A stretch of 64,000 nt of DNA from Candidatus Krumholzibacteriota bacterium (GTDB lineage: Bacteria; Krumholzibacteriota; Krumholzibacteriia; JAJRXK01), in contig JAJDAC010000046.1 in assembly GCA_029262065.1 (NCBI GenBank), positions 1-64,000 of the forward strand, read 5' to 3'. The position numbers and the translations under genes are program-made. The notes under the pieces were generated by a model that ran no database searches, had not been told where the DNA came from, and worked only from the letters and a program-made list of their open reading frames with translations. The stretch's first letter is position 1; every line of letters starts with the position of its first letter. Below, in pieces: positions 3,757 to 33,113 of the stretch.

Positions 3757-4056
3757 TCATGCTGCTTCGTGGTCTGTTGGCGTGAAGTGAATCTCCAGAC
3801 CAAGTGACTCGAGAAGCGTGGCCAAGCTCGAGAGTCTGGGGTTGCCCTTCTCAGACAGCATTCGGTAGAGGTTCTCACGGTTCAGGCCCGTCAAGTTCGC
3901 GGCTGCACCAACTCCACCGTGCGCTTCGACCACGTTGCGTAGGCCGAGAAGAAACACCTCCTCCGAATCCTCAAAGCACGCAGTCAGGTACTCCGCCGCC
4001 TCATCGATGTCCTGCAGTTGCTCGATGAGTTCTTCGTGATAGCTCCTACTTGGCAT
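3757..4056 (-). CDS. HigA-like antitoxin (XRE family addiction-module antidote)
   Basis: A 99-residue protein encoded against the direction of the array. Residues 43-90 form an XRE-type helix-turn-helix: VEAHGGVGAAANLTGLNREN followed by LYRMLSEKGNPRLSSLATLL. This is the pattern of the HigA/RelB-type probable addiction-module antidote proteins that follow a HigB/RelE toxin. Its ATG overlaps the end of the truncated toxin frame by 11 nt. It should bind the inverted repeat at 4241-4260 and repress its own promoter. The antitoxin looks intact although its toxin is not. Confidence 0.85.
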   Translation of the reverse strand: MPSRSYHEELIEQLQDIDEAAEYLTACFEDSEEVFLLGLRNVVEAHGGVGAAANLTGLNRENLYRMLSEKGNPRLSSLATLLESLGLEIHFTPTDHEAA

Positions 4057-4237
4057 CTCGGTAGGCCCTCCAGTATTCTTTCGCTTGCTCTATGTCCCGG
4101 TTCTGGCGGCGCTTGTCTCCGCCGCACAACAGAACTACGAGCACATCGCTTTCCTGGCCAAAGTACACGCGATATCCAGGTCCGTAGTCGACTCTCAGTT
4201 CAGAAACTCCGTCCCGAGCAGCGTCCGTTCCATGGGA
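4046..4237 (-). pseudogene. 5'-truncated HigB/RelE-type toxin remnant
   Basis: Reading the minus strand in frame gives DGVSELRVDYGPGYRVYFGQ followed by a VLVVLLCGGDKRRQNRDIEQ segment and the end WRAYRDAK. This is the conserved C-terminal half of HigB-type addiction killer proteins. An in-frame TAG at 4238-4240 sits directly upstream and there is no start codon, so about the first 40-50 residues of the family are missing. The promoter and operator lie immediately upstream of the remnant, which suggests an internal deletion that removed the toxin N-terminus and kept expression of the antitoxin. Confidence 0.8.
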
Positions 4238-4239
4238 CT

Positions 4240-4268
4240 ATTGTAGCTTACAAACTACAACTACGCAA
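4240..4268 (-). promoter_or_regulatory. Promoter and operator of the HigA module
   Basis: Plus-strand TTGTAG (4241-4246) and CTACAA (4255-4260) form a perfect inverted repeat around an 8-bp centre. On the minus strand TACAAT (4240-4245) is a good -10 box, with TTGCGT (4263-4268) 17 bp upstream as a -35 box. The repeat overlaps the promoter, as expected for autorepression by a HigA protein. Confidence 0.6.
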
Positions 4269-4294
4269 GCCGTATGCCGAGGGATTCCTGGGGG

Positions 4295-4426
4295 GCCTAA
4301 CCCGTCGCTGCAGCAGTCCGACGCGCTTGTCACGCCGACTGCATCGGACTTAACATTGACTTGGAGAGTCGTAGAGGACAGCCGTCGCGCCAATCGCCCC
4401 GGCTGCTGAGCGACAAGCCGTTAGAC
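4295..4426 (+). other. attC site 5
   Basis: R'' is GCCTAAC (4295-4301) and R' is GTTAGAC (4420-4426). Inner arms are CTTGTCACGCCGACTGC and GTCGCGCCAA. The outer arms pair as CGCTGCAGCAGTCCGACGCG against CCCGGCTGCTGAGCG. It is the last fully typical attC in the window. Confidence 0.9.
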
Positions 4427-4444
4427 GGACTCAGGACTTCTCGA

Positions 4445-5194
4445 ATGCGAAACTACTGTAGATTTCTCACTCTCCTCCTTCTCGTCGGCTCCGCCGAGCG
4501 TGCGGATTCGCAGAACGTGAACAACCCTTTTCTTCCTTACGATCCAGACCAGAACACACTCATCCTCTACCACTTCGATGAGCAGCCGTCGTCTATGGTT
4601 CTGGACGCCAGCGGAAACACTCTGCACGGTCTTTGGACGCCAACCCCAGCGGGATCAACTGGGCGCTTCGGCAATGCGATCACGCTAAGTGGTGTGGCGG
4701 AGGTGATTTCAACTACTTTTCCCGAGCTGGAGGATACTGACTTAACGGTTGAGGCATGGATCTACCCCCTTTCGCACACGACCTGCCTTGTCGCCGACCT
4801 TCGAAGCCCGGGAATACCGGCAGACGACGGCATCGCTATAGGACTTACGGAGGAAGGCCACGCCTTCGGGATTTCCCAGGGTGGACATCTCCCTTTCTTC
4901 ATCGTTGAAAGCACCAGCGTGATACCGCTTGAGTCTTGGACTCATGTCGCGGTTGTGTTTCCTGGTACAGCGGCTCTCCTCCAGATCTACGTCAATGGGA
5001 ACCTGGAAGCTGGAATCGACGGTGTCCGTTGGCGCGGAACCCGCAAGGTCGTACTTGGCAAGGTCATGTCGGGGGGATGGGGGCACTTCACCGGCCTTCT
5101 CGATGAGTTCCGTGTCTCCACCGTCACCCGGGGATTCTCGCCGGTCTCCGTGAACGGGACGTCTTGGGGCCAGCTCAAGTCCGGTTGGGAGTAG
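4445..5194 (+). CDS. Secreted LamG-like jelly-roll protein
   Basis: This 249-residue protein begins at ATG 4445, with AGGA 8 nt upstream and just after attC 5. Residues 1-23 form a signal peptide. The mature part is a single concanavalin A-like/LamG domain: LILYHFDEQPSSMVLDASGN, then GRFGNAITL, DLTVEAWIYPL, SWTHVAVVF, LQIYVNGN and a closing GLLDEFRVS. Such domains bind carbohydrate or adhere to surfaces; no enzyme domain is attached. A surface or extracellular binding role is inferred. Confidence 0.82.
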   Translation: MRNYCRFLTLLLLVGSAERADSQNVNNPFLPYDPDQNTLILYHFDEQPSSMVLDASGNTLHGLWTPTPAGSTGRFGNAITLSGVAEVISTTFPELEDTDLTVEAWIYPLSHTTCLVADLRSPGIPADDGIAIGLTEEGHAFGISQGGHLPFFIVESTSVIPLESWTHVAVVFPGTAALLQIYVNGNLEAGIDGVRWRGTRKVVLGKVMSGGWGHFTGLLDEFRVSTVTRGFSPVSVNGTSWGQLKSGWE

Positions 5195-5198
5195 TGCT

Positions 5199-5278
5199 GT
5201 CTAACCAGGGCATGGACTTGACGGGCTGGCGCGCTGCCGACTATCGGCGGTAGAATGCCCACCAGGAGGTCGTTATGA
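5199..5278 (+). other. Short attC-like site supplying the next start codon
   Basis: GTCTAAC (5199-5205) follows the LamG stop codon, and GTTATGA (5272-5278) closes the interval. Between them GGGCAT pairs with ATGCCC and CCGACTATCGG forms an inner hairpin. The ATG of the next gene lies inside the right core, with its ribosome binding site AGGAGG at 5264-5269. It is shorter than the other attC sites and lacks their inner arms. Confidence 0.4.
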
Positions 5279-6660
5279 AGAGGCGCTCGCTTCCACTGAT
5301 TGCTGGGATCCTTCTCGCCACGTGTGTGTCGGCGGCTCCGTCAGTTGCCGAGGACGCGAAGGAGCTTCGGGAAAGCGACGAGAATCCGGCGGTCGCCGTC
5401 GAGCATGAGGTGCGGCTTGCTGCGGCGAACGCGGCAGAGGAAGCGCTGTGGCCGGGGTTCGATCCCCTCGTTGTTCCCCTCGCCGTGTTCGACGGAGCGA
5501 AAACATTTCTATTTCGCCACCCTGCCCCGCCGTCGGGGTTCACGCCTGTCGCGGGCGCCTCGCCCGGCACTTGGTCCTGGGAAGGGCGGCATGAGGCCGT
5601 TACCGCCAACACCAACTCTGAGATCGGGGGCGTCGCAACGGCAACGCTCATGGTCGATCGGGCGGAGCCGGGCCGCTCATTCCGGAACCTCGCTGCCGTT
5701 GCCATCCACGAGGCGTTCCATGTCTATCAGCGCGCGCACCATCCTGACTGGATCGGGAACGAGGTCGATCTTTTCGTGTACCCGACCGACGCCGCCGACC
5801 TCCTTGCGCTGCGCCGGCTCGAGACCGAAGCGCTGCGGCGAGCGCTGGCGGTTGATGACGAGGTCGGCGCGGCGTGCTGGGCTCGCCGGGCGCTGGCGCT
5901 CCGCGCCGAGCGGTACGCCCAAATGGACTCGGCCTTCGCCGCATACGAGCGCGGAACGGAGCTGAATGAAGGACTCGCCACCTACGTCGAGATGCGGGCG
6001 GTGGGCCGGCGCGCGGTAGACTGGCCCGAAGCAGAGTTCGGTCCGGCCGAGGTTCGCCGCCGCGCTTATTCCACCGGCGCCGCACTCGCGCTCCTCCTCG
6101 ACCGCTTTCAGCCCGACTGGTCCGCCGCGTTCGAGGCCGACGACCACCAGACGCTCGACGAAGCGCTCACCACGGCTCTCGGCATGGAGAGTGCCTGCAC
6201 GTTCGACAGTGATGTCGTGGCCGGCGCAGAGCAGAAAGCGAGCCTGGACGTGGCGGAGCTCGCGGGGGAGCGGGAACGGCGGCTGGCCGCGTTCGAAGAG
6301 AAGCCCGGATGGCGTGTTGTCGTCGAAGCGGACGGCAGCGAGCCGCTGTGGCCGCAGGGGTTCGACCCGCTCAACGTCGAGCGCGCGGGAGCCGGCCGCG
6401 TGGTCCACACCCGCTACCTCCAGCTGGGCAATGCCGCCGGGCAGCTGGAGGTCCTGAATGCGGAGGCGCTGACGGACGGAGCTGGTCCGCACCCGCTGTT
6501 CCAGGGCGTCCGCCGCGTGGAGTTGACGGGTCTCGTGGAGCCCGAAGTCAGCGAAGCGGAAGGCAAGGTCAGCGTGCGGGCCCCTGGCCTGACGTTGGAG
6601 TTCACGGGGGCGAGCGTCACGCGAACCGGTGAAATGATTGCCGTGAGACTGGATTCATGA
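5275..6660 (+). CDS. Exported gluzincin-like zinc metallopeptidase
   Basis: This 461-residue protein starts at ATG 5275 behind AGGAGG, with a signal peptide (residues 1-25). The zinc site is visible: AIHEAFHVYQRAHHPDW around residue 142 (HExxH), and ELNEGLATYVEM around residue 228, which supplies the third ligand Glu. The C-terminal third is strand-rich. The layout matches secreted peptidases of the gluzincin group that other soil bacteria encode. It is large for a cassette gene. GC content and codon use are higher than in the neighbouring cassettes, which suggests a separate origin. Confidence 0.75.
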   Translation: MKRRSLPLIAGILLATCVSAAPSVAEDAKELRESDENPAVAVEHEVRLAAANAAEEALWPGFDPLVVPLAVFDGAKTFLFRHPAPPSGFTPVAGASPGTWSWEGRHEAVTANTNSEIGGVATATLMVDRAEPGRSFRNLAAVAIHEAFHVYQRAHHPDWIGNEVDLFVYPTDAADLLALRRLETEALRRALAVDDEVGAACWARRALALRAERYAQMDSAFAAYERGTELNEGLATYVEMRAVGRRAVDWPEAEFGPAEVRRRAYSTGAALALLLDRFQPDWSAAFEADDHQTLDEALTTALGMESACTFDSDVVAGAEQKASLDVAELAGERERRLAAFEEKPGWRVVVEADGSEPLWPQGFDPLNVERAGAGRVVHTRYLQLGNAAGQLEVLNAEALTDGAGPHPLFQGVRRVELTGLVEPEVSEAEGKVSVRAPGLTLEFTGASVTRTGEMIAVRLDS

Positions 6661-6682
6661 TGGGGTCACGTCGCGGCCGGTG

Positions 6683-6730
6683 GCCTAACCCTTAGCTGGC
6701 GCCGATTCCAGCGGGCGGTCTTCCCAACGT
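6683..6730 (+). other. attC remnant
   Basis: GCCTAAC (6683-6689) lies 22 bp after the peptidase stop codon and is followed by a GCTGG/CCAGC hairpin. No clear right core is present. It is consistent with the left half of a decayed attC. Confidence 0.3.
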
Positions 6731-6733
6731 GAG

Positions 6734-7552
6734 GTGACTTTGACCAAGCCAGAGATCGACAGTTCGTTCACGACGGATGTAGCCAGGTTCTATGAGGCGA
6801 CTCTCGTCCCGTTGATTTTCCGGCCCTATGCGCGGGACCTGGCGGACCGAACCAAAGACCTCACACCGAGCGCGGTCCTGGAGGTTGCCTGTGGGACCGG
6901 AGTGGTGACTCGAGCCCTTGCCGAAAGTCTTCCTGACGACTGTGACATCGTTGCGACTGATCTGAATGACGCGATGGTGGCGCATGGTCAGCATGTCGGA
7001 ACGGCACGTTCGGTAACCTGGCGACAGGCAGACGTGATCGATCTTCCGTTTCCTGCGGACACCTTCGATGTCGTGGTGTGCCAGTTCTCGGTGATGTTCT
7101 TCCCCGACCGTGTGGCAGCATACCGCGAGATACGCCGCGTTCTTCGGCCCGGCGGTACGTTCCTGTTCAACGTCTGGAATAGCATTGAGCAGAACGAGTT
7201 CGCCGACGTGGTGACGAAGGCCGTGGGCACTCTCTATCCCGCCGACCCTCCAATCTTCCTGGCTCGGACACCTCACGGCCACGGCGCACCGGAGGAGATT
7301 GAGAGCGACCTGAAGGCGGCGGGTTTTGTGACGTGTGCTCTTGTCCAAAAGGAGGAGATCAGCGTGGCCGACGCCCCGGACGTCCCCGCCGTTGCGTATT
7401 GCCAAGGCACTCCTCTCCGCAATGAGATTCTGGCTCGAGATCCAGATGGACTCGAACGGGCCACCAGGGTTGCGACGGAAGCGCTGCGGTCGCGGTTCGG
7501 AGAAGGCGAGATCAAGGGTCGGATCAGTGGGGTGGTGGTGATCGCTAGCTAG
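6734..7552 (+). CDS. SAM-dependent class I methyltransferase
   Basis: A 272-residue methyltransferase. Motif I is VLEVACGTGVVTRAL (near residues 51-65), the acidic end of beta-2 is DIVATDLNDAMV, then ADVIDLPFPADTFDVVVCQF and the post-motif LRPGGTFLFNVWN. This is the Methyltransf_11/25 fold. Residues after 150 give the acceptor-binding region; the substrate cannot be inferred. The start is GTG 6734, with TTG 6740 as an alternative. The selenoprotein gene follows 118 bp downstream on the same strand; no functional link is evident. Confidence 0.88.
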   Translation: MTLTKPEIDSSFTTDVARFYEATLVPLIFRPYARDLADRTKDLTPSAVLEVACGTGVVTRALAESLPDDCDIVATDLNDAMVAHGQHVGTARSVTWRQADVIDLPFPADTFDVVVCQFSVMFFPDRVAAYREIRRVLRPGGTFLFNVWNSIEQNEFADVVTKAVGTLYPADPPIFLARTPHGHGAPEEIESDLKAAGFVTCALVQKEEISVADAPDVPAVAYCQGTPLRNEILARDPDGLERATRVATEALRSRFGEGEIKGRISGVVVIAS

Positions 7553-7670
7553 CAAGCGATTGCCGCTGCGCGCTTGTGTAGATGGCCGCGGCGTAGCAGA
7601 ATCGCGGGACACTATCCGGAGAGAAATACGACTTCTCACGATCGATGCACCCCGACATGGAGAGCGCGCG

Positions 7671-7922
7671 ATGGCTATCCGAATCGTCTACTGCGAGACC
7701 TGAGGTACGACCGCCAAAAAGGCAGCGAGTTTCGCTGCCCTCATCCGCAACACTCTGGGGAATCCCGTCGAGCTGGAAAAGGGGCGGCAAGGGCAATTCG
7801 ACATCGTCGTAGACGGCCAAACTGTCGTTTCCCGAAAGGGCGGACTGCTTGCCAAACTCTTGAATAGACCTTGGCCAAGCGAGGAGGACGTCGTAGCGGC
7901 TGTACGCGACGCGGTACAGTAG
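7671..7922 (+). CDS. SelW-like (Rdx family) selenoprotein with in-frame TGA as Sec
   Basis: Read with TGA 7701-7703 as selenocysteine, the frame from ATG 7671 to TAG 7920 gives 83 residues beginning MAIRIVYCETUGTTAKKAA. Cys8 and Sec11 form the CxxU redox motif of SelW/SelT/SelH (Rdx) proteins. The part after the TGA keeps family features: GQFDIVVDGQTVVSRKGG and a final PSEEDVVAAVRDAV helix. GGAGA lies 7 nt before the ATG. A bacterial-type SECIS hairpin follows the TGA. The product is a small cytoplasmic thioredoxin-fold protein, probably a thiol oxidoreductase. Standard gene calling would miss it, because the TGA leaves a 10-codon frame. Decoding needs selA, selB, selC and selD, which are not in this window. 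Confidence 0.88.
7701..7739 (+). promoter_or_regulatory. Bacterial SECIS element (UGA plus downstream hairpin)
   Basis: Seventeen bases after the TGA a perfect 7-bp stem, GGCAGCG (7721-7727) with CGCTGCC (7733-7739), encloses the loop AGTTT. The loop starts 24 nt after the TGA and has G as its second base. Known bSECIS elements have the apical loop about 16-37 nt from the UGA and a G among the first two loop bases. The hairpin lies inside the coding region, as in bacteria, and would bind SelB. Confidence 0.8.
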
Positions 7923-7974
7923 ATCGTGGGCGGAGGCCAGATAACAAAGTCACGTCAGGTGCAGGGGAAACGTC

Positions 7975-8367
7975 GTGCAAATACTCCCTAGAGCATTGGC
8001 CGGCCTGAGCGGACTGCTTTTGCTCGTGGATGCCTATCTTCATTCCACGGGAACTGCTGCGGTCCGGGAAGCGCTAACCGGAGACCAGGTTCCAGAGTTC
8101 TTTGCCCATGCTCTTCCGATCATCTGGCTATTCTTCTCCTGGCATCTGGTGGCCATGGCGGCGCCGTTGCTGTGGGCTTCCATAACCAACCCTTCCTGGT
8201 TCTTGCCAGCCACGTTCTTCTGCGGGTTGGTGGCGCTCGGCGATTTTTTTTGGGTGTATAGCGCTGCGGGTTGGTTCCCTGGTACCGTTGTCCTGTTCTT
8301 GGTCGTGGCGGCGCTCGGGGCTACCACCATTGTTCTGGCCCGAGGGAGAAGTGCGACTGCCACCTAA
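7975..8367 (+). CDS. Small four-helix membrane protein
   Basis: A 130-residue protein starting at GTG 7975, 52 bp after the selenoprotein gene. It has four hydrophobic segments: residues 6-20, 45-65, 75-97 and 101-122, with short loops and no catalytic motif. The stop TAA is part of ACCTAAC (8362-8368), an attC-like left core. I do not recognise a family. An inner-membrane protein of unknown function. Confidence 0.7.
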   Translation: MQILPRALAGLSGLLLLVDAYLHSTGTAAVREALTGDQVPEFFAHALPIIWLFFSWHLVAMAAPLLWASITNPSWFLPATFFCGLVALGDFFWVYSAAGWFPGTVVLFLVVAALGATTIVLARGRSATAT

Positions 8368-8453
8368 CATGTCGCTCAGCTGGACATCGGCATGCTGTGC
8401 GCGCCACTGAGTTGCTGTAGGGGTATCATGGTCGGCAGCTCCCTGGGTCACCG

Positions 8454-9071
8454 GTGTTCGCAGCTGATGCCTTGTCCGCTAGCCAGTCGGAGCTGGATGT
8501 GGAAAGTGAATTTCCCCTCGGTGCGCAGATCATGGCCCTCGCGGCGGGGGGCTTGCTCGTGGTGTGTGTTCCGCTACTGATTCTTGAGATTTCGATGATC
8601 AGATGCTTCCAAGCTTTCTTCTTCGGGCACGGGTTGGTTCTGTATTCGGCGACGCGCAAACTGGACCACGCCAGCTGGCGTGTCCCAGGGACCAGGGTCA
8701 CGACCAAACATGGTGTTTTTGTGTTCCTGGGTCCGAACCGCCTACTGTTTCGGGGGACGTTCACGGCCGACGGTCGACGTGAGAAGATCTCGACCCTGGC
8801 CAAGGGCATGGTCACGCTCAAGGGCGACCTCGCCGAGACTACAGTCCGGGTTCCGCTGTATATGTTCCTTCTTCCGCTCTCGATTGCGCTCATATGGTTT
8901 GTCTTCGTACTCTTCGGAACAAGCGTTGGGGTGGCGGCCAAGGGTGCGTTGCTTCTCCCAGGAGCTTTGTTCATTGCGTTTGTGACCCGACAGACCGCGC
9001 GGTCCGAAATGCGTCAGGTTTCAGCGTTGATCGGCGACCTCGACTCACTGATCGGCAAGGACGTTGGCTAA
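8454..9071 (+). CDS. Membrane protein of unknown function
   Basis: A 205-residue protein from GTG 8454. One hydrophobic segment spans residues 27-48. A soluble strand-rich central part (residues 60-130, including GVFVFLGPNRLLFRGTFTAD) could form a small barrel. Two more membrane segments follow at about 132-150 and 155-175. The short C-terminus is basic. The TAA stop lies inside the GGCTAAC core of an eroded attC (9066). No family recognised. Confidence 0.65.
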   Translation: MFAADALSASQSELDVESEFPLGAQIMALAAGGLLVVCVPLLILEISMIRCFQAFFFGHGLVLYSATRKLDHASWRVPGTRVTTKHGVFVFLGPNRLLFRGTFTADGRREKISTLAKGMVTLKGDLAETTVRVPLYMFLLPLSIALIWFVFVLFGTSVGVAAKGALLLPGALFIAFVTRQTARSEMRQVSALIGDLDSLIGKDVG

Positions 9072-9209
9072 CAAGACGATCAGCCAGACCGCGGTGCTTG
9101 TCACCCCGGTTGCATGGACGTCATACTGGATGGCTCTTGCGTGCATTGAATCGATCGCCGGGTGCACCTTTCTAAGAACCTCTCTGCCGATAGTCAGGTG
9201 GACTTATGT
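9066..9209 (+). other. Eroded attC site
   Basis: GGCTAAC (9066-9072) is followed by an arm matching the array's family (AAGACGATCAGCCAGACCGC then CTTGTCACCCCGGTTGC). The right half is no longer recognisable except for CTTATGT at 9203-9209, a plausible worn GTTATG core. That core contains the ATG of the next gene. Confidence 0.55.
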
Positions 9210-9763
9210 TGCGAATCCGGATCTTCGCCGTTGCAATGCCGTTGGCCATGCTTGGGTGCGCAACGCTCGGACCTGGGCCTGAGGCGGGTCCCTTCGAGAT
9301 CGCTGCCCGAGTAGCAGATGCCTTTGATCGTGGCGACGACGATACAATCGTGTCGTTGTTTTTTACCCCATCTCAGAAGCCCGCGTACAAGCTGGAGGAG
9401 CGCAATGAGCGCCTGGCGCGAGGACTGGCCGTATTTCGGAAACATCTCGGGTCAACCACCGGAGAGCGAGCCCCGTTTGCTGGAACTGACACATACGTAT
9501 TGAGCCTCAAGGTCGCGAGCGACGACTTCTGGCAGCCCCTGGAGAAAAACGGTGAGTTTGCGCAGGTCAGTCTTCTGGTTGAGTACAAAAAGGCTGGCCC
9601 GGGGTGCATGCAGCTCTCATTCTACCGACACCGCAACGCTTGGAACCTACGGAATCTGTCCTTCGGGTTTCCGGGGTCCGTGGATGGCGCGATAGAACGG
9701 ATGAGCCCACTCTCAAATGAGCTCTTTCAGGTGATGGTCGAGAAGCCGGCGCCCAGCATCTGA
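9206..9763 (+). CDS. Lipoprotein of unknown function
   Basis: A 185-residue protein with the lipoprotein signal MLRIRIFAVAMPLAMLGC; Cys18 follows the lipobox AMLG. Residues 34-60 hold an NTF2-like start (IAARVADAFDRGDDDTIVSL). The rest is amphipathic, with a central EFAQVSLLVEYKKAG strand region. Anchored in the periplasm or outer membrane. The gene starts inside the eroded attC right core. A GTTACAG core lies 21 bp after its stop (9784-9790), perhaps the last trace of its own attC. Confidence 0.65.
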   Translation: MLRIRIFAVAMPLAMLGCATLGPGPEAGPFEIAARVADAFDRGDDDTIVSLFFTPSQKPAYKLEERNERLARGLAVFRKHLGSTTGERAPFAGTDTYVLSLKVASDDFWQPLEKNGEFAQVSLLVEYKKAGPGCMQLSFYRHRNAWNLRNLSFGFPGSVDGAIERMSPLSNELFQVMVEKPAPSI

Positions 9764-9806
9764 GCCTTGCGCTCGTCGCCAGCCGTTACAGCAGACGGAA
9801 AATCAC

Positions 9807-10604
9807 ATGCAGAAACTGCCAAGGTCCATATTCATTTCTCATGGTGGTGGCCCGTTGCCGTTGTTGGGAGACGAACGGCATCATGAAATGTTGGTCTGTC
9901 TGAAAGATCTTGCGGCCGCCATTCCTAGACCCGACGCGATAGTAGTGGTCAGCGCCCATTGGGAAGAAAAGCGCCCTACGATTACGGCGGCACGCAATCC
10001 ATCGCTGATCTATGACTACTCCGGATTCCCTGCGGAGTCCTATGAAATCAAATACCCGTGCGTGGGCGAGCCCGCTTTGGCAGATGAGATATTTCATCTG
10101 TTCACGGCAAGATACATCGATGCAGGATTAGATGAAGAAAGGGGTCTCGATCACGGCGCTTTCGTTCCGCTTAAGAACATGTATCCCGAGGCCGACAGTC
10201 CGTGTGTGCAGGTATCTCTGGTAGATACACTGGATCCGTCCACACACATTGAAGTTGGGCGGGCGCTCGGGAGCCTTCACAAGCGGAACGTGGTGGTTAT
10301 TGGGTCAGGTTTCTCTTTTCACAATGTGAGGGCGTTCTTCGCGCCTGATGGATCTGAGGGCGATCGGCTCAATGAGGCGTTTGAAGAGTGGTTGCAGGCC
10401 GCATGCAGCGGCAGCCATTATTCAGAAGAACAACGGTATGAATTGTTGGCCCGATGGAGCGACGCCCCAGGAGCTCGCTACTGTCACCCGAGAGAAGAAC
10501 ACCTTCTACCACTGCATGTGTGTTACGGGTTGGCGCGAAGCCCCTGCACCAAACGTATGGAACTCACCATCATGAACAAGAAGTCGAGCATGTATGTGTG
10601 GTGA
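9807..10604 (+). CDS. LigB-type extradiol ring-cleavage dioxygenase (YgiD-like)
   Basis: A 265-residue protein of the class III extradiol dioxygenase family (4,5-DOPA dioxygenase type). Metal and active-site histidines are visible in IFISHGGGPLPLL (near residue 12), VVVSAHWEEKRP (near 50), ERGLDHGAFVPLKNMYPEAD (near 119) and PREEHLLPLHVCYG (near 236). It would use Fe(II) or Zn and O2 to open catechol-type rings. The start ATG 9807 directly follows the trace of an attC core. The C-terminal 15 residues (SSMYVW end) differ from the family. Confidence 0.88.
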   Translation: MQKLPRSIFISHGGGPLPLLGDERHHEMLVCLKDLAAAIPRPDAIVVVSAHWEEKRPTITAARNPSLIYDYSGFPAESYEIKYPCVGEPALADEIFHLFTARYIDAGLDEERGLDHGAFVPLKNMYPEADSPCVQVSLVDTLDPSTHIEVGRALGSLHKRNVVVIGSGFSFHNVRAFFAPDGSEGDRLNEAFEEWLQAACSGSHYSEEQRYELLARWSDAPGARYCHPREEHLLPLHVCYGLARSPCTKRMELTIMNKKSSMYVW

Positions 10605-10652
10605 TCCGAATGCCAACCAATCGTTGCAGCGGGCATGTGAACCGTCGAACCC

Positions 10653-11072
10653 ATGAGCAAGATCTTCTTCTACGGCCTGTTCATGGATCGGTCTCTTCTC
10701 GCTGAGAAGGGTCTTCACCCGGAGATTGTCGGGCCAGCAGTGTTACCCGACTACCGCATCCACATTGGCGACCGAGCAACATTGCTGCCATCCGCTTCGA
10801 GTCGCGCCTTTGGAATCGTGATGGAACTCGCCGACCAGGAAGTCCGTGCGCTCTACTCGGAACCGAGCGTTCGCGAGTACACAAGAGAACGCGTACAGGT
10901 GGAGCTGTTGGACGCAAACGAAGCTGTCGAAGTGTACTGCTACAACCTTCCGCGCGAGTTGGGCCTGGCCGGAGCCAATCCCGCGTACGCGATCCAGCTA
11001 GCCCAGTTGGCTGCGGTGCTGCAGTTCGATTCGGCATACGTGGAAGAAATCGTTGCGTTCGGCGAGTCGTAG
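10653..11072 (+). CDS. Gamma-glutamylcyclotransferase-like (AIG2/GGCT fold) protein
   Basis: A 139-residue protein that opens with MSKIFFYGLFMDRSLL, the substrate-binding YGxxM-type loop of the GGCT/AIG2 fold. The pattern continues with ASSRAFGIVMELADQEVRAL, then EPSVREYTRERVQVEL. Members cyclise gamma-glutamyl amines or act on related amides. The catalytic Glu is probably in the middle segment and is not assigned here. Single gene; substrate unknown. Confidence 0.75.
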   Translation: MSKIFFYGLFMDRSLLAEKGLHPEIVGPAVLPDYRIHIGDRATLLPSASSRAFGIVMELADQEVRALYSEPSVREYTRERVQVELLDANEAVEVYCYNLPRELGLAGANPAYAIQLAQLAAVLQFDSAYVEEIVAFGES

Positions 11073-11219
11073 TGGCCCCACTGCCTAGGGGCGGCGTTCG
11101 CCATCGACTACTGGGGAAAGGGTACAGTGAGGTCAGTTTGGCCGCCTCAAGGAATTGATTGAGCGGGCCGGCCACCTTATGATTGTGCAGCGTCCCCAGG
11201 ACTCCCACAGGGGTAGAAC

Positions 11220-11846
11220 ATGAACACAAGCAGATTGCTGAGACGGCTTCCGCTAGTCGGCCTTTGCTTCGCTTTGAGTTGTCTTGTGGAGGCGACTCCG
11301 AGCTATTCCCCACTCCATGCAGAACAGATTTCGGAGTCGTCTGTAGCACAGAGTGACTCGTCGGGCGGTGCACCTCAGGAGACCCTTGACCTGGCGGCGC
11401 TATCACCCGAAAGGCGTTTCGATTTCCTTGTCGGCACATGGGACATACTCGTCGATGACAAGATCGTCGGAGTAGCCACGTTTACGAAAATCATCGAGGG
11501 GACAGCCCTTGAACAAGAAGAGGTGTATTTCCAGAATGGTACCTCGTCGAAGGCTTTGATCAGTTACGCCTACCGTGAGCAGAAGAAGTGGATTCAATCA
11601 TGGATAGACATATGGGGCTTTCATCTGGTCTCGAAAGGTGGTCTTGAGGGGAACGCGATGGTGCTCTATACCACGACAAGGTATTTCGAGGACGCGGTTG
11701 AAGCCCAGGTGCTTGCTCGTCAGATTTTCTCGGACGTAACGGAGGCGGGTTTCCAGTACGCGTGGGAGATTTCTCAAGACGAGGGCAAGACGTGGACCTT
11801 CAACAATGGATCGTACTACGCGCGCAGAGAAGTTCGAGGGCGTTGA
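11220..11846 (+). CDS. Exported DUF1579-like protein
   Basis: A 208-residue protein with a signal peptide (about residues 1-34). The mature part has the FDFLVGTWDILVDDK opening typical of DUF1579-like beta-barrel proteins, then repeated strand pairs (VGVATFTKIIEGTALEQEE, SKALISYAYREQKKWIQSWI) and the end FNNGSYYARRE. A lipocalin-like fold is probable. Role unknown; periplasmic or secreted. No operon partner. Confidence 0.7.
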   Translation: MNTSRLLRRLPLVGLCFALSCLVEATPSYSPLHAEQISESSVAQSDSSGGAPQETLDLAALSPERRFDFLVGTWDILVDDKIVGVATFTKIIEGTALEQEEVYFQNGTSSKALISYAYREQKKWIQSWIDIWGFHLVSKGGLEGNAMVLYTTTRYFEDAVEAQVLARQIFSDVTEAGFQYAWEISQDEGKTWTFNNGSYYARREVRGR

Positions 11847-11882
11847 TGGCCGCGAGGCCTGACCAGCCAAGAGGGAACATGC

Positions 11883-12497
11883 ATGACCATGATTTTCAGG
11901 TGTGAGTATCGATTTCGAGATTATTCCGGTTACGACAACGATACGCTGAAGGAGCTTGTTGAGAAACTATTTCACCTTGGATATTCATCCCCACCAGATC
12001 GGGTCGAGGTAGTTGAATATCAAGAAGTGATCAATGAGCACGAACCCGATGAGCCCGTGGAAATCGATTCGAAGATACTGGAAGCAACTCTGGAAGAGTG
12101 CATCGAACAGATAGGAAGAGTTGGTGCGAATCGCACAGCCATCAAGTTTCAACACTCAGCAGGTGATAGCCCCGACAAGAGATTCCTTCTCAATGCGACC
12201 ACCGGGCTATACAACGAATTGATAGGGTTGGCCGACAAGTACCGCCTGGAGAGTGGGAACGAATGGGGGCATGCTTTGTACTATCCCCTTTCGGTGGGTA
12301 TGGGTATTGATGGCTATGAAGGATCGCGACCGCGGTGGCGACCACGCATTACAATAGGAGGGGATGGCTATGTTCCCAGTTCCGATGATTTTGCAGATTA
12401 TCTGCTGAAGAATAGTAATCGACTGCAAGAACTAGCAAGCATGGCGAGAGAAATATTCAAGACTGAAATTGATCCTGTAATGGTGTACCTCGGCTAG
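11883..12497 (+). CDS. Hypothetical protein, AT-richer than its surroundings
   Basis: A 204-residue soluble protein with no family I recognise. Acidic N-terminal half (VEVVEYQEVINEHEPDEPVE), a helical middle, and a Gly/Pro-rich segment (GMGIDGYEGSRPRWRPRITI). Codon use is visibly AT-richer than that of the neighbours, which fits a recent arrival. The stop is followed at once by TCAACC and CATCGTTGCATCGG, reminiscent of the left half of an attC. Confidence 0.6.
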   Translation: MTMIFRCEYRFRDYSGYDNDTLKELVEKLFHLGYSSPPDRVEVVEYQEVINEHEPDEPVEIDSKILEATLEECIEQIGRVGANRTAIKFQHSAGDSPDKRFLLNATTGLYNELIGLADKYRLESGNEWGHALYYPLSVGMGIDGYEGSRPRWRPRITIGGDGYVPSSDDFADYLLKNSNRLQELASMAREIFKTEIDPVMVYLG

Positions 12498-32997: not shown

Positions 32998-33026
32998 TTT
33001 CTGCTCTCCGGAGCAGCGGTTTGAAC

Positions 33027-33060
33027 GGCCCGGGGAGAAGTCTCCCCGGGCCTTCTTTGT
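33027..33060 (+). terminator. Rho-independent terminator after the barrel gene
   Basis: GGCCCGGGGAGA (33027-33038) pairs perfectly with TCTCCCCGGGCC (33041-33052), followed by TTCTTTGT. A 12-bp GC stem with a T-rich tail. Confidence 0.9.
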
Positions 33061-33113
33061 GGGTGGTGAAAGGCAGTATCACGTCGTTCGCAAGCTCCGA
33101 ATAAGCCGGGCGA

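Follow-up and report, generated by a model that had tools for sequence, protein, structure and literature searches.

The open reading frame (ORF) at positions 7671-7922 of the window, by which we mean the whole 64,000-nt stretch of DNA analysed, is almost certainly the gene of a SelW-like selenoprotein of the CxxU type, whose UGA at 7701-7703 is read as selenocysteine (Sec) by means of a bacterial SECIS hairpin (bSECIS) at 7721-7739. The evidence in hand comprises an in-frame TGA, a hairpin with a covarying stem and a conserved loop, the family and predicted fold of the protein, and a genome with SelA, SelB, tRNA-Sec and SelD; SelB binding, Sec insertion and redox activity are what we infer from it. 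SelW-like proteins are a known bacterial selenoprotein family in PMC13188914 and PMC1794560, and PMC2398784 counts them among the most widespread (427 Sec versus 56 Cys sequences in Table 2). Since the bacterial family itself is known and widespread, what is new here is a variant with a spacing of 24 nt, and it is of modest interest.

Translation of 7671-7922 with TGA as Sec begins MAIRIVYCETU-GTTAKK. The sole Pfam match of the ORF is Rdx (PF10262; E 1e-8, 35.7 bits against a cut-off of 22.6), and similarity to this family is found on both sides of the in-frame TGA. Two NCBIfam models scored below their curated cut-offs, namely TIGR02174 (CXXU_selWTH; 29.5 bits against 34.2), under which the ORF is for this reason not filed, and NF041051 (SelTWH_Campy; 35.7 bits against 88). 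The AlphaFold model of the protein (pLDDT 91.4) gives a confident Rdx fold, thioredoxin-like, with CxxU where the first strand ends. Its structural matches include chains of PDB 2obk, 2oka, 3dex and 2fa8 (query TM-scores 0.70-0.77); SelW-related proteins from bacteria lead the PDB list, in which mouse SelW (PDB 2npb) comes at rank 23 with a TM-score of 0.61. These structural matches agree with the result of a profile search against PDB sequences. The product of 7671-7922 is a SelW-like, Rdx family CxxU protein. Compared with bacterial SelW-like (SELENOW-like, PF10262) proteins, the gene is alike in having CxxU after the first strand, a Rdx fold, an in-frame UGA and a bSECIS directly after it, and its protein belongs to a subclade that differs by a CxTU motif, by one extra residue after Sec and by a lengthened loop ahead of the last helix (GGLLAKLLNRPWP). 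The features of the locus are collected in the table.

Table. Features of the SelW-like locus, in window coordinates
Feature	Positions	Strand	Basis
GGAGAG, probable Shine-Dalgarno sequence, 6 nt 5' of ATG	7659..7664	+	sequence reading; inference
SelW-like/Rdx selenoprotein ORF, 83 residues, TGA as Sec, TAG end at 7920-7922	7671..7922	+	translation, PF10262, AlphaFold
TGC, Cys8 of the CxxU motif	7692..7694	+	reading; invariant in a 34-row alignment
TGA, Sec11	7701..7703	+	direct reading, translation; TGA kept in homologues
UGA-to-stem spacer, 17 nt	7704..7720	+	direct reading
bSECIS stem, 5' arm, GGCAGCG	7721..7727	+	direct reading, RNAfold, clade covariation
Apical loop AGTTT, conserved G-U at positions 2-3	7728..7732	+	direct reading, 98-gene comparison
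bSECIS stem, 3' arm, CGCTGCC	7733..7739	+	direct reading, RNAfold, clade covariation

The sequence-only reading of this DNA had described a perfect 7-bp stem that starts 17 nt past the TGA and carries the loop AGTTT with G as its second base, and direct reading confirmed each of these elements. RNAfold of 7701-7745 returned the same 7-bp stem and extended it by one A-U pair to eight, which leaves a GUU triloop (MFE -16.4, z -3.04; equally good shuffles 3/200), and the energy of the hairpin alone is -13.2 kcal/mol. The bSECIS model, as given in PMC13188914, allows a loop of 3-9 nt and an upper stem of 4-16 bp, with a G as first or second loop base and G or U as the base after it, a distance of 16-37 nt from UGA to apical loop, and an energy of at most -7.5 kcal/mol. 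The hairpin at 7721-7739 lies within all of these limits, for loop, stem, G plus G/U, spacing and energy alike, and we see no departure from the published consensus (bSECISearch model, Fig. 2 of the same source). The earlier claim that spacing and loop agree with this consensus was hence borne out, by a distance of 24 nt from the TGA to the start of the loop and by the loop AGTTT.

Homologues were collected by genome searches. Of 80 genomes from the window's phylum, 49 matched a profile, at 51 Rdx places, all 51 with a TGA inside the match, within the CxxU motif (one also has a TAA). A search of 396 Acidobacteriota genomes gave 102 places in 93 genomes, 99 of them with TGA; the other three are two Cys forms (G393 and G448; CTQC), which carry Cys at the Sec site, and one match cut by a contig end (G311:C19). 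We read 98 Sec-type genes, 51 of the window's phylum and 47 of the other phylum's 99. L078 (the same gene as L019), L025 (as L021), L027 (as L022) and G311:C19 were left out of the counts, and the two Cys forms were used in the tree only. The nearest relative, L019, lies on a contig labelled uncultured Acidobacteria and has TGA at the same codon, followed by an identical 19-nt hairpin; its genome also has SelB. L084 (G188:C577), a member of the window's clade, has the TGA and an extra in-frame TAG, being either a broken gene or a sequencing error; it was kept in the set with X at the TAG. No relative was found on plasmids or viral contigs. One candidate, L020, was dropped: it is apparently a gene of the ClpX type, which had matched over a short stretch by chance.

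Conservation of the hairpin was read over these 98 genes. A strict model, with a contiguous stem at its place after the TGA, was passed by 77/98, as compared to 1 to 20/98 when the model was applied to these genes at ten different offsets. In 88/98, RNAfold placed four or more pairs around the expected loop and left loop bases 2 and 3 unpaired. All 98 genes have G as the second base of the loop. The third, a codon wobble position, is T in 84 and G in 14, and never A or C; like codons elsewhere in the same genes end in C 637 times, in G 319, in T 231 and in A 149. Among 45 distinct hairpins from 52 genes, 30 cells had changed on both sides versus 8.4 in shuffles (0/500), and in the window's clade (13 distinct hairpins, 97.8% of cells paired) there were 9 double changes versus 2.5 in shuffles (1/500; pair score 0/500), all of these shuffle statistics being inflated by relatedness. 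Slid controls are free of that fault, and the pair counts of the 45 hairpins are clearly above those of their slid versions. At the fourth pair from the loop (columns 6 and 18, wobble positions), GC, CG, AU, GU and UA are all found within the window's clade. Moreover, where the window's gene and L019 code for the same residue, codons are identical at 8/9 positions in the hairpin and at 21/53 outside it (Fisher p 0.0075). A stem not kept in homologous genes had been named as an observation that would refute the bSECIS; this was not what we saw, the stem being maintained by compensatory changes.

The strict model was failed by 21/98 homologues, including L024, a second Rdx gene of the window's genome, and one member of the window's clade (13/14 pass). 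In the class with a loop start at 21 nt, 15/84 genes were flagged: either the expected loop was closed by a run of fewer than four pairs, or the best fit lay at another offset. Most flagged genes of this class have an A-C or U-C mismatch as the third pair from the loop, after which the outer pairs resume. Flagged hairpins may be real SECIS elements that contain an internal mismatch, or they may be weak SECIS elements.

The stem is made of the codons for a conserved helix, Ala-Ala-[SGR]-[LFV]-Ala-Ala (Ala-Ala-Ser-Phe-Ala-Ala in the window), and it could be asked if the TGA encodes Sec while the hairpin is a by-product of this coding, the real SECIS lying elsewhere. Synonymous recodings that preserve the protein passed the -7.5 kcal/mol limit in 771/5000 trials (15%) and equalled the observed hairpin in 73/5000. 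Set against this are the compensatory changes at the wobble positions of columns 6 and 18, the restriction of the loop wobble base to T or G in every gene read, and the conformity of the hairpin to the published rules of spacing and loop; we consider such a by-product very improbable. The recoding results do bear on the earlier statement that hairpin and protein similarity support each other independently. Both indeed support the bSECIS reading, but as the stem sits in Ala-rich codons they are not wholly independent, and that part of the statement needs to be softened.

A more improbable alternative still is that the TGA really does terminate translation, the gene being broken or the ORF just 10 codons long, with a hairpin that arose by chance. 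On both strands of the window, a hairpin that conforms to the model and is at least as stable follows 7/1856 TGAs, the one at 7701 included; a model hairpin of -7.5 kcal/mol or lower follows 116/1856, and one with at least seven Watson-Crick pairs 9/1856. A model hairpin is combined with a frame that is open to either side at 34 TGAs, including the one at 7701. The hairpin rules by themselves are weak evidence, since in GC-rich DNA seven of 1,856 TGAs do as well. A hairpin at the single TGA that lies within the CxxU of a Rdx gene is a different matter, an event of about 0.4%. By energy alone, the hairpin ranks 7th of the 1856 TGAs, and a chance origin was rejected only in combination with homology. 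In favour of a stop, the gene is also missing from the mechanical list of ORFs of the window. Against a stop stand the codon itself, which is TGA in every match of the window's phylum and in 13 further clade members, the Rdx pattern, which continues in frame past it, and the covariation of the hairpin. Conservation nearly excludes a true stop.

The bSECIS reading also predicts a Sec pathway in the organism, and absence of SelB had been named as a second refuting observation. We looked for it in the window's genome (5.77 Mb, 95.6% complete) and SelB was there, on C58, at 354 bits against a cut-off of 242 and with the winged-helix domains SelB-wing_2 and SelB-wing_3. The genome search yielded a complete set of SelA (C7), SelB, SelC (tRNA-Sec, on C17, anticodon TCA, 71.6 bits) and SelD (L018 on C48, G000:C48:88900-89832). 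In the SelD gene, an in-frame TGA falls within the N-terminal loop (ASAAGUAAK), and SelD thus looks like a selenoprotein too. The second Rdx gene (L024, G000:C29:24990-25217) is a canonical SelW-like gene with an in-frame TGA, and the mismatch in its hairpin is at the third pair. About 1.7 kb from the tRNA-Sec gene, a 658-aa frame gives a SelB-like GTPase match (G000:C17:49623-50312; 78.7 bits, below the cut-off), which is probably a translation factor other than SelB. That UGA is read as another amino acid, through a changed genetic code or readthrough, would suit a frame open across the TGA, but with a tRNA-Sec of anticodon TCA and the whole Sec pathway in the genome, a neighbouring gene (5275-6660) that terminates in TGA, and Cys rather than Trp at the site in homologues, its probability is negligible.

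As a Sec-type gene with its bSECIS, the window's gene belongs to a minority in spacing. In 14 of the 98 genes, the window's included, the distance from the TGA to the loop is 24 nt, and the other 84 were grouped as a 21-nt class, with respect to which the window's hairpin lies 3 nt further from the UGA. In the protein alignment the 14 proteins have one extra residue just after Sec, so that the hairpin still falls at the same point of the protein helix. In a 100-row tree the 14 genes form one group (99/91, and 100% of bootstrap trees), from only 77 columns and with a bootstrap that had not fully settled. The 13 other 24-nt genes all came from the search of the 396 Acidobacteriota genomes, and the window's genome is the only one of its phylum's 80 to carry this form. 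Window and L019 proteins are 78% identical, versus 35.6% for the SelB of the same two genomes and 40.8% for their other SelW-like pair. This comparison suggests horizontal transfer, by which the window's copy may have been acquired. We think it fairly probable that these genes are a distinct Sec-type Rdx clade (CxTU plus an inserted residue), in which the gain of a codon would have shifted the bSECIS from 21 to 24 nt with loop and helix place fixed, and that the window's copy would have come across phyla together with its SECIS and would work with a foreign SelB. Among the papers listed by our literature searches, we found none that names the 24-nt clade.

The surroundings of the gene were compared as well. 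No conserved operon partner was found among the ORFs round ten clade members, with the first part of each translation read by eye and Pfam applied to the window's neighbours only, and in a blastn comparison of window positions 4001-12000 with L019 only the gene itself matches. Rfam gave no match over the whole window at gathering scores. Elsewhere, at ~33020-33081 on the - strand, there is a very stable hairpin with a perfect stem (GGCCCGGGGAGACTTCTCCCCGGGCC, -23.1 kcal/mol), its loop beginning 36 nt past a TGA; it is possibly a terminator.

In the SECIS of E. coli fdhF, the hairpin lies just after the UGA and the loop G-U is read by the winged helix of SelB. The hairpin at 7721-7739 is proposed to work in the same way, with a protein and a stem different from those of fdhF. 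The C-terminal winged-helix domains of SelB would bind the apical-loop G-U, and when the UGA reaches the A site SelB would supply the ribosome with Sec-tRNA-Sec. Translation would then continue to the TAG at 7920, and the product would be a small, thioredoxin-like protein with a redox function, in which Cys8 and Sec11 form the redox pair.

Automatic annotation halts at a TGA of this kind and the gene is lost. It can be seen here how far sequence alone carries a bSECIS claim, through covariation and through a loop wobble base that is never A or C, the latter being a usable marker for true bSECIS in the SelW-like family. Finally, one SECIS that occurs within one family at both 21 and 24 nt offers a natural series for the spacing tolerance of SelB.
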